Shown in pieces: positions 3,011 to 5,853 of a stretch of 33,510 nucleotides of DNA. Origin of the DNA: a virus. Below the pieces are notes generated by a model. The model made no database searches. It was not told where the DNA came from and was given only the letters and a program-made list of their open reading frames with translations. Position 1 is the stretch's first letter. The number at the start of each line of letters is the position of its first letter. The DNA lies in IMG/VR virus record IMGVR_UViG_3300024346_004942, positions 1 to 33,510 of that record. One strand, given 5' to 3'. The position numbers and the translations under genes were made by a program.

Positions 3011-3013
3011 TTC

Positions 3014-3042
3014 TTGACGAGATGGTTAAAAGTAAGTATAAT
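3014..3042 (+). promoter_or_regulatory. Sigma70-type promoter of the large non-coding RNA
   Basis: TTGACG (3014-3019), 17 bases, TATAAT (3037-3042). Expected transcription start near 3049, immediately before the first strand of the long closing helix at 3050. Confidence 0.85.
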
Positions 3043-3048
3043 AGTATT

Positions 3049-3652
3049 TCAAAGATTGGGGAAGGGCAGTAAACCGCGACCGCCCAAGCGGATAAGTTCC
3101 TAAGTGTTGGAGAATCCTTCGTAACCAACAGCTTCTGCTTCCCCCATCTTTGACACGAAGTCCAGTAACGATGTTAGAGTGATATTCGTTGATCTCACGG
3201 AGGAACTGGCACACCTTACCTAGCTGAGAGGTGTCTAAAGTGTATGGCAGCAAGGAGTTTGTAGCAGTGTACTGAACATTGTGGGTTTGTGAGTGTAGCG
3301 TATGTTTATCCGATACTAAAAACATAACGCGAGGTTTGGGAGCTGTGCGTGGTGGTCTTCTCCCTTTTGGTTTCTTACTAGCCGTATGATAGCTAAGTAG
3401 CTTTCATTTGATGTGACTATCAATTATTGCAAAATGCTAATTAATAAAAGTGAGTAAGTGGGAGGTACTACCAATAACAGTACTGTTCCTAACACATAGT
3501 TAGGGGTCTATTGTGCTTATGCGACCAACATACTAAGCCAACACTTGATAAGTGTATAAATATCCGTAGTCGGGGCTGCGTCAGGCTAGTCACCACCCCA
3601 CCTAATTCGGGAGTAGTCGCCCACCTTATAGCCTCCTTCGGGAGGTTTTTTT
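3049..3652 (+). ncRNA. Large structured non-coding RNA candidate, about 600 nt
   Basis: A dedicated promoter (3014-3042) and a strong terminator (3631-3652) bracket about 600 bases without a credible gene. The transcript has many paired elements visible by eye: 3050-3064 with 3138-3152 (15 positions, one mismatch), 3106-3110 with 3125-3129, 3167-3171 with 3186-3190 inside 3162-3166 with 3205-3209, 3211-3216 with 3229-3234, 3298-3307 with 3320-3330 (one bulge), 3488-3493 with 3499-3504, and 3541-3546 with 3550-3555. Size, isolation and ornate folding recall the large phage RNAs GOLLD and ROOL, but I cannot assign it to either from memory. The short reading frames inside it have no ribosome-binding sites. 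Confidence 0.75.
3631..3652 (+). terminator. Intrinsic terminator of the large RNA
   Basis: CCTCC-TTCG-GGAGG forms a stem capped by a stable UUCG tetraloop, followed by seven T. Confidence 0.95.
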
Positions 3653-3658
3653 ATGCCT

Positions 3659-3709
3659 AAAGTTATGTAATTCTGAAGTTGTACTTACGAAATTGCATAA
3701 CTTTTTTTC
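3659..3709 (+). terminator. Second tandem terminator
   Basis: AAAGTTATGTAATT (3659-3672) pairs with AATTGCATAACTTT (3691-3704), 14 bp with one wobble, followed by a T-run to 3708. Two terminators in a row insulate the RNA unit from the next promoter at 3731. Confidence 0.9.
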
Positions 3710-3730: not shown

Positions 3731-3759
3731 TTGACAAAATTCCTTACCTCCTGTATAAT
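3731..3759 (+). promoter_or_regulatory. Sigma70-type promoter
   Basis: TTGACA (3731-3736), 17 bases, TATAAT (3754-3759), driving the small-gene cluster 3791-4984. Confidence 0.85.
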
Positions 3760-3790: not shown

Positions 3791-3964
3791 ATGAACTATG
3801 AAATTATGCGGTTATCTATGGTGGCACTAAGTGCTTTTATGCTTGGTATTGCTATTAGCTCTACATCAGTACAGAACTCATGGAGGCTCGATGCAGCAGC
3901 AACGTCGTGTGCTCAATTTAACCCTGCTCACGGGCAATTTGAATGGCTGGAGAAGTCAGAATGA
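3791..3964 (+). CDS. Hypothetical small membrane or exported protein
   Basis: 57 residues. ATG at 3791 follows AAGGAG at 3777-3782. Residues about 8-24 (MVALSAFMLGIAISSTS) form one hydrophobic segment, either a signal peptide or a membrane anchor; the rest is polar with a single Cys. First gene of a tightly overlapping cluster. Function unknown. Confidence 0.65.
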   Translation: MNYEIMRLSMVALSAFMLGIAISSTSVQNSWRLDAAATSCAQFNPAHGQFEWLEKSE

Positions 3965-4414: not shown

Positions 4415-4533
4415 AAGATGATATTATAGGAAAGTTTGAAAACGACTGGACTGTCTATGATATTGCTGAATACTACAGTACATCGGTTGAAGCAGTAATG
4501 AAGATACTAGGATTAGTGGAGAACCCGTTTTGA
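4411..4533 (+). CDS. Hypothetical minimal HTH-like protein
   Basis: 40 residues. The stretch DWTVYDIAEYYSTSVEAVMK looks like one helix-turn-helix (AEYYSTSVEAV being the turn and recognition helix). It overlaps the coiled-coil gene by ATGA and the next HTH gene by 4 bases, so all three are probably coupled. It may act with the HTH protein at 4530. Confidence 0.55.
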   Translation: MKDDIIGKFENDWTVYDIAEYYSTSVEAVMKILGLVENPF

Positions 4534-4850
4534 ATTATACACCAGAAGAAACATTATTTATGGTCGAGGCTTATACAGCCGAGCCAAACAGAGAAACAGT
4601 AGAAAAACTAGCAGAAAAGCTAGAGAAAAGTATAAAGTCAATAATTGGCAAGCTATCAAGAGAAGGAGTATATCAACGTGCGGCCTACAAAAGTAAAAGT
4701 GGAGATGACCCTGTCACAAAGATGGAATTGGTTAATAACGTCGCTGAGAATCTTGGAATTGAGATTGATGATTTATTTGGTCTCGATAAAAGCCCGAAGG
4801 CAGCTCTCAAAGCGCTTGAACTCGCTACGGGGTCGCTTAAACCGAGATGA
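4530..4850 (+). CDS. Small HTH DNA-binding protein, paralogue of 2537
   Basis: 106 residues with TTG start at 4530, preceded by GGAG at 4518-4521. N-terminal HTH YTPEETLFMVEAYTAEPNRE, then TVEKLAEKLEKSIKSIIGKL and REGVY aligns with the protein at 2537 almost position for position; the C-terminal tail (MELVNNVAENLG, then SPKAALKAL) also matches. The two genes are probably an old duplication in the same early block. A plus-strand copy of the CTACGGGGTC motif is at 4825-4834. Function probably DNA binding. Confidence 0.75.
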   Translation: MNYTPEETLFMVEAYTAEPNRETVEKLAEKLEKSIKSIIGKLSREGVYQRAAYKSKSGDDPVTKMELVNNVAENLGIEIDDLFGLDKSPKAALKALELATGSLKPR

Positions 4851-5104: not shown

Positions 5105-5533
5105 ACTAGGAAAAAGCAAGGAAGATTACGCTGCCACTAGAACAAGCAAAGGGAAAGTGCAAAACATTATGGGTAAGGAATACGGTTTTTATTGACCAAT
5201 CGCGAATTGCATGAAATTGGCCCTTCTTACTTAATATGAGAAAAATGGTTTTGTATTCAGGAGTCGATTCAGGTCATAGAGGGTCATTGCAACCCTTGAA
5301 TCTGTTTGATTATCTTGGTTGATAATAATTGGTCAGAATAACTTGTTATCTGTTATTGATGCGGGATTATTGTGAGCTTGTGATTACTCTCATTTATCTT
5401 CTAGGTTCGTGGATACACTCTCCTTTAATTCCGAGTGTACCACAAGCGTAGAAATAATTCACACTCACTTCGCTCACAGCTAGTAGAGAAGAATTGTTAA
5501 GAGACCTTGTTGTTTATCCGTAGCTAGAAACTT
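5105..5533 (-). ncRNA. Gene-free structured region, possible leftward RNA
   Basis: No reading frame with a ribosome-binding site is seen between 5102 and 5649. A leftward promoter-like pair (TTTACT 5568-5563, 17 bases, TATAAT 5545-5540) points into it. Visible helices include GTGGATACACTC with GAGTGTACCAC (5410-5421 with 5434-5444, one bulge), TGTGAG with CTCACA (5371-5376 with 5473-5478), AGGGT with ACCCT (5280-5284 with 5292-5296) and CCAAT with ATTGG (5196-5200 with 5216-5220). The strand is uncertain because helices look similar on both; the -35 matches at only 4 of 6 positions. Confidence 0.4.
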
Positions 5534-5539
5534 ATGTTT

Positions 5540-5568
5540 ATTATACACCTTATTTTGGCATAAGTAAA
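5540..5568 (-). promoter_or_regulatory. Weak leftward promoter candidate
   Basis: Minus strand TTTACT, 17 bases, perfect TATAAT. Lies downstream of the leftward operon end (5650) and reads into gene-free DNA. Confidence 0.4.
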
Positions 5569-5649
5569 GTACTATTTTTGAGTAGGTATATGGTAGGAAA
5601 AAGTACAATGGCTGTAAGCAAACAGAAAAATATTCTAAAAAGGAGGGTG

Positions 5650-5853
5650 CTACTTATCATAGATAAGCAAACCTTCAGGTTCCACAAGTTTGGGAATACA
5701 GTAGGCTGAAACGTAGGGAGAAATACTATAGGGATTTTTGCGAACTACGATTGATTCTGCATAAGCATTACAGACATTAATGCTACGAAAGTACATATCC
5801 TGGCTAACGATAACACCGTTGGCCAGGACTATAAGTAAAAAGACATGAATCAT
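5650..5853 (-). CDS. Hypothetical exported or membrane protein
   Basis: 67 residues beginning MIHVFLLIVLANGVIVSQDM, an uncharged hydrophobic start suitable for a signal peptide or membrane anchor. Two Cys follow (NVCNAY and AYCIPK), which could form a disulfide outside the cytoplasm. Last gene of the leftward cluster; start overlaps the previous stop by 4 bases. Function unknown. Confidence 0.6.
   Translation of the reverse strand: MIHVFLLIVLANGVIVSQDMYFRSINVCNAYAESIVVRKNPYSISPYVSAYCIPKLVEPEGLLIYDK

Follow-up and report, generated by a model that had tools for sequence, protein, structure and literature searches.

A probable new family of structured phage RNAs with a compact, covarying pseudoknot core

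The stretch of DNA analysed here (hereafter the window, 33,510 nt) is a 33.5-kb IMG/VR contig from an uncultured phage, and it raises the question of what is encoded in about 600 bases downstream of a small DNA-binding-like gene, for which an earlier note, made from the letters alone, had proposed a large structured noncoding RNA, either a diverged member of the GOLLD or ROOL families or a new class. Few classes of large structured phage RNA have been described, and those studied best form RNA-only cages. On its right side the window encodes a D5-like regulator, an NAD-dependent ligase, a DnaB-like helicase, a primase, a PolA-type polymerase and PhoH, together with SbcC/SbcD-like subunits, an exonuclease and a ribonucleotide reductase, a gene set presumably reminiscent of T5-like phages; the polymerase shares ~43-44% identity with those of cultured phages.

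The transcription signals described in the earlier note, namely a near-perfect sigma70 promoter, a UUCG-capped terminator and a second terminator behind it, are all present (Table 1), and delimit a predicted transcript of 604 nt to the first terminator, its start being placed at ~3049. Beyond the 3' end lie a further promoter and small genes, one of them a second HTH-like gene (4530-4850). Because all promoters of the region are of the host sigma70 type, the RNA would be made by host RNA polymerase. The suggestion that a separate promoter and tandem terminators set a transcription level of its own needs correcting: the signals exist, but a strong promoter is common to many units of this phage and is not distinctive. 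Near-consensus host-type promoters are a general rule throughout the window phage and not special to this RNA, with 19 instances of TTGAC-N-TATAAT in the window against ~0.1 expected. Within the transcript, the longest ORF comprises 36 aa and lacks a ribosome binding site, reading frames in the homologues are interrupted by stops and indels, and antisense ORFs of 99 and 88 aa gave no family match at curated cut-off. The claim that no credible gene is present was therefore borne out, and a small protein or antisense gene was rejected, no frame being conserved and no family matched. The terminator-ended RNA lies directly upstream of a gene at 3791, for which it could serve as a cis-acting leader or riboswitch; however, that gene has its own perfect promoter past the first terminator, an arrangement repeated in the homologues, a second terminator-like hairpin follows, and no alternative antiterminator was seen. 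We regard such a leader as very unlikely.

Table 1. Coordinates of features in the window and, where a contig is named, in related contigs.
Feature	Position	Strand	Evidence or remark
Small DNA-binding-like gene upstream of the RNA	2480/2537-2860		Weak PHROG 1725 match; a 48-aa ORF is also there
Sigma70-type promoter, TTGACG-N17-TATAAT, A-rich upstream	3014-3042	+	11/12 matches; precedes nearly all homologues
5' domain closed by helix P1 (3049-3064 with 3138-3153)	3049-3153	+	Fold z -3.7; covariation; predicted start ~3049
Linker that contains a block (GAAGUCCAGUAACGAUG...GAUCUCACGGA...CUGG)	3154-3210	+	Alignment; block also in L003, L004, L005, L033, L091
Pseudoknot stem S1 (3211-3216 with 3229-3234), six pairs	3211-3234	+	97.8% of cells paired; 3 pairs with two-sided changes; 0/20,000 permutations
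Pseudoknot stem S2 (3219-3225, in the loop of S1, with 3249-3255)	3219-3255	+	Covariation; one A.A mismatch in the window copy
Near-invariant pseudoknot linker CUAAAGUGUAUGGC (family UAAAGYGUAUGG)	3235-3248	+	Alignments A2/A3; diagnostic pattern
Hairpin H2 (3265-3270 with 3276-3281), loop ACUGA (family RCCGA)	3265-3281	+	4 pairs with two-sided changes
Hairpin H3 (3298-3306 with 3321-3330)	3298-3330	+	4/5 pairs with two-sided changes
Conserved CGAGGU directly after H3	3330-3335	+	
3' hairpin with G-rich apical loop (GGGAG...GUGGUGG...CUCCC)	3338-3364	+	Counterparts in homologues on other stems, by eye only
Lineage-specific 3' insert, ~244 nt	3365-3608	+	Unmatched in other loci; same position holds tRNA-Met in L031
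Pre-terminator hairpin GGG-AGUAGUCG-CCC	3609-3622	+	By eye; GAG/CUC in L031
UUCG-capped intrinsic terminator	3630-3654	+	Stem 3630-3647, then T7
Second terminator-like hairpin with T7 tail	3659-3708	+	Hairpin 3659-3706; z -5.2, 0/200 shuffles as stable
Perfect promoter of downstream genes, separate from that of the RNA	3731-3759	+	After the first terminator
Second-class RNA loci	L174 978-1086; L175 4075-4183; L177 4025-4124; L181 2832-2934; L190 406-490; others		
Other sites of the parS-like palindrome	L004 4082; L007 3806; L013 1621; L033 9176; L176 2196; L180 1986; L181 219; others		

Relatives of the locus were gathered via first-gene loci, second HTH-gene loci and a diagnostic pattern of the pseudoknot linker that gave 0 chance hits within the window. 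With the window included, at least 18 contigs carry the family (~20 homologous loci among IMG/VR phage contigs); each has a single copy, always in the same genomic slot and strand. In nearly all homologues the RNA is preceded by TTGAC-N-TATAAT and followed by a T-tract terminator, the one clear exception being L027, which is interrupted by the contig end. A covariance model, R1, built from 15 sequences, scored every clear member with one confident match per contig on the same strand, and recovered sequences outside its training set (L219, 63.8 bits; L168, 75.3 bits; L164, 56.0 bits; L122/L171, 49.8 bits; L161, 36.8 bits; L173, 26.0 bits). L165, in which a pseudoknot with a shorter linker can be drawn by eye, scored only 4.6 bits and was excluded. 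Among 50,697 phage records the family was not detected at blastn sensitivity, cultured phages showing only similar terminator hairpins. Scanning 84,980 prokaryote genomes for the exact pattern gave no convincing copy: the single hit, in a Rhodanobacteraceae MAG (L237), overlaps tRNA-like sequence with no visible S1/S2 pair and is likely due to chance.

Family members share a core of ~130 nt, comprising an H-type pseudoknot with a near-invariant UAAAGYGUAUGG linker followed by two hairpins. The promoter is followed, in order, by the 5' closing helix, whose content is lineage-specific, the H-type pseudoknot, H2, H3 with CGAGGU, a variable 3' part and the terminator. In the window the pseudoknot reads ACACCU-UA-CCUAGCU-GAG-AGGUGU-C-UAAAGUGUAUGGC-AGCAAGG, with the partner segment of S2 following the linker. 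Relatives swap both arms together, combining S1 ACUGCC/GGCAGU with S2 CCUCUAU/AUAGAGG, S1 AGUCCG/CGGACU with S2 CCCUUCA/UGAAGGG, or S1 ACACCC/GGGUGU with S2 CCUACUC/GAGUAGG. In a fixed-window test, none of 20,000 permutations reached the observed sum for S1 or for S2; we relied on this test in place of earlier arm-pairing figures, for which arms had been hand-chosen and bulges removed. Across the four helices (24 pairs) of a MAFFT alignment, 89.5% of cells were paired, compared with 38-47% when slid by 1-3 columns, and two-sided changes were seen in 15 pairs and 55 cells, none of 500 shuffles doing as well on any measure; the covariation score of the four core helices was 0.390 versus 0.146 in shuffles (0/500). 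One pair of H2, for example, occurs as UA, GC, AU and CG across homologues. RNAalifold found only S1 in the core, since the remaining helices are out of register between aligned sequences, which is why fixed-window tests were used. For the G-rich 3' hairpin, the windows of the statistical test overlapped and the outcome was uninformative.

The evidence for a structured RNA rests on this comparative covariation and not on folding energy, because the whole-RNA fold is ordinary: the full 608-nt fold is not exceptional (z -1.1, 3/20 shuffles equally good), folding alone would not have proved the case, and the central pseudoknot is invisible to ordinary folding. The 105-nt 5' domain, by comparison, folds at -36.3 kcal/mol (z -3.7). 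Its closing helix, initially drawn as 3050-3064 with 3138-3152, proved real in the slightly longer form listed in Table 1, and helices at the P1 position covary between homologues despite differing sequences, with 1/5000 permutations reaching the observed score. Covariation in both pseudoknot stems and in P1, together with broken reading frames, is the outcome that the earlier note had named as support for a noncoding RNA. The same observations bear on whether the locus instead acts as a DNA element, for example as an origin or as a site for packaging or binding: conserved noncoding sequence nearby (1553-2228) does have candidate DNA features, including a parS-like site, but the long-range compensatory pairing includes G-U pairs and a pseudoknot, and the homologues sit between promoter and terminator. 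A leader and a DNA element are both unlikely readings, and the latter is extremely so.

Searches with Rfam models including GOLLD, ROOL and OLE gave no gathering-score match in the window or its relatives and, at relaxed E-value, no match in the window RNA and eight member loci; neither a tmRNA nor a tRNA was detected in the window RNA by ARAGORN or Rfam. The proposal of a diverged GOLLD or ROOL RNA, for which a large phage RNA and a tRNA insertion like that in the GOLLD linker might speak, was thus not supported at either threshold; the ~130-nt core has an architecture of its own, some members span ~250 nt, and we consider it highly improbable. The other proposal, a new class, fared better: given covariation without a conserved frame and the absence of Rfam matches, the locus almost certainly represents a real new family of structured RNA, its novelty being judged against Rfam 15, the collections of phages and genomes searched, and openly accessible papers.

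Comparison with known RNAs further delimits the family. GOLLD is likewise a structured phage noncoding RNA with a conserved and a variable part, the latter sometimes occupied by a tRNA (PMC12286853); however, many GOLLD members exceed 800 nt, with a conserved 3' and a less conserved 5' region, whereas the window family has a central core, transcripts of ~250-660 nt, a pseudoknot built around the UAAAGYGUAUGG linker, and no covariance-model match. A further hallmark of GOLLD is its RNA-only cage of 14 subunits (14-mer). A tRNA within the variable region does occur in L031 and L219, a shared trait that is no proof of membership. ROOL, likewise a large RNA of phages or prophages, has pseudoknots and a variable linker too (its env-120 representative has 659 nt), but its architecture differs, small members exist in the window family, and no covariance-model match was obtained. 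OLE is similar as a large, elaborately structured bacterial noncoding RNA, and differs in the lack of a covariance-model match and of a comparable association with a phage slot.

The description of the locus as a giant RNA of ~600 nt held for the window but not as a family property. Transcripts range from ~250 nt (L007, L168) through ~280 nt (L013) to ~654-660 nt (L002, ~654 nt) around the core; as judged from the sequences compared, "giant RNA" describes some members and not the family, the ~600-nt size being lineage-specific. Complete tRNAs were identified in 2 of ~20 members, most having none: a tRNA-Met in L031 lies between core and terminator, inside the transcript (ARAGORN, Rfam), and a tRNA-Gly(UCC) in L219 (4197-4270) occupies the P1 position at the transcript start. 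Likeness to tmRNA and tRNA consists in these two relatives and in two related phages that encode a permuted tmRNA elsewhere (Rfam RF04321; L091 1937-2125, minus strand, and L181 7731-8060, plus strand; 93 and 106 bits), which hints at Proteobacteria as host. We also observed a degenerate tRNA-like element in the 3' insert of L026 (~2550-2625), for which ARAGORN and Rfam make no call and which suggests decay of an embedded tRNA.

Related contigs were found to hold a different RNA at the same slot, GGGGAAGUCAGGGAC...GAUAAGACAGUAAAGAU...CCGG...GCCCC. This second class (GAUAAGRCAGUAAAGAU...GGURAAA) contains two helices with 100% of cells paired and two-sided changes in 16 cells. Cells and score gave 0/500, the pair count a less decisive 23/500. 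Sixteen second-class loci were found with model R2, and no Rfam match was obtained for the class. R1 has no match in 16 type-II or related contigs, and the two classes were never found together. Contigs of both kinds encode polymerases 77-83% identical to that of the window. L165, whose polymerase is nearest to it (87%), gave no confident match to R1. It therefore seems that different RNA classes replace one another in a fixed slot. By eye the 5' domains of the pseudoknot and GAUAAG classes are alike, but the GAUAAG model gives the window only 7.9 bits, a score that lends such a homology no support. A long, mutually similar noncoding stretch (e.g. GGCGUUCCACAUCGAAAUUGCGUAGAAG) was also observed after the same HTH gene in L008 (~5298-5680), L009 (315-890), L011 (4611-5220) and L012 (2330-2975), and is perhaps a third RNA class. 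It is conceivable, as a speculative extension, that the slot is reserved for a large structured RNA, with unrelated classes swapped in and out (pseudoknot, GAUAAG and possibly the third) and tRNAs loaded. If true, the phages would possess an interchangeable RNA machine for taking over the host, which might assemble in the manner of GOLLD/ROOL.

With regard to function, 3049-3654 is probably a stand-alone, trans-acting structured RNA, which might have a compact partner-binding core and tolerant ends and work in a manner like GOLLD and ROOL. The conserved core would be a compactly folded body with one conserved binding partner, the ends would be positions that accept other RNA, tRNAs included, and the RNA, abundant and structural, might bind or hold a component of the host or phage translation or tRNA machinery. 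We favour a structural, partner-binding RNA because the conserved features form a compact body and not open loops, and because the ends accept tRNAs. GOLLD sometimes carries tRNAs in its linker, ribosomes were bound in pull-downs of GOLLD/ROOL, and in one strain ROOL reached the abundance of 16S rRNA (PMC12286853). That the family shares their mechanism without belonging to them is by analogy a tentative proposal: the link to tRNA consists of the tRNA-Met, the tRNA-Gly and the two permuted tmRNAs, but GOLLD and ROOL are both much larger than the core and than the ~250-nt members. Inspection by eye showed no palindromic loops like those used in self-assembly, and tRNAs in 2 of ~20 members may reflect mere co-transcription.

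GGAGGUG/GAGGUG loops prompted the idea of an anti-Shine-Dalgarno or 30S decoy, which went unsupported, complementarity to the 16S rRNA 3' tail being not above shuffles (sum 130 versus 122.8; 17/200 as high). A base-pairing regulator, in which a single-stranded segment (the G-rich 3' loop, for instance, or the UAAAGYGUAUGG linker) pairs with mRNAs of host or phage while the core merely stabilises, would suit the separate promoter and terminator, the conservation of unpaired segments, and the recurrence, by eye, of G-rich apical loops on different stems; against this, the most conserved unpaired stretch is the pseudoknot linker, usually a structural position, loop sequences vary among lineages, and the 16S tail, the sole target tried, gave no signal over shuffles. 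We give this reading little weight. Somewhat less weight still goes to a decoy or sponge against a host defence protein or RNase (e.g. tRNA-cleaving effectors), with tRNAs and tRNA-like parts as bait. Embedded tRNAs, the documented use of phage tRNAs to evade PARIS and retron effectors (PMC11555353, PMC12409363), and the swapping of structured RNA classes in one slot, as an arms race would predict, count for it; most members lack a tRNA, however, and neither ARAGORN nor Rfam finds the core tRNA-like. We accordingly rank a structural RNA of the GOLLD/ROOL kind ahead of both a base-pairing regulator and an anti-defence decoy. With a compact covarying pseudoknot core and members down to ~250 nt, the family should be easy to probe and solve, providing a tractable system for studying the uses of structured RNAs in phages and the way in which tRNAs come to lie inside them.

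Additional features of the surrounding DNA were also identified. A perfect parS-like palindrome, TGTTCCACGTGGAACA, occurs at 1553-1568 of the window (0 expected by shuffles) and in ~15 related contigs (Table 1), where in the window it heads a conserved noncoding region and may possibly be a partition or origin element using host ParB. This region (1553-2228) has no good ORF over ~600 nt and ranks with the most conserved DNA of its surroundings (74-78% to L013 and L005); it contains a ~22-bp repeat, GGCGCGGGGGCGCCAGTAGTAG, has promoters in both orientations, and is a candidate origin or control region. Positions 897-1532 of the window encode a polyphosphate kinase 2 (PF03976, E 9e-48), and a glutamine riboswitch aptamer (RF01739, 55.8 bits) was found on the phage contig L180 (8315-8365).
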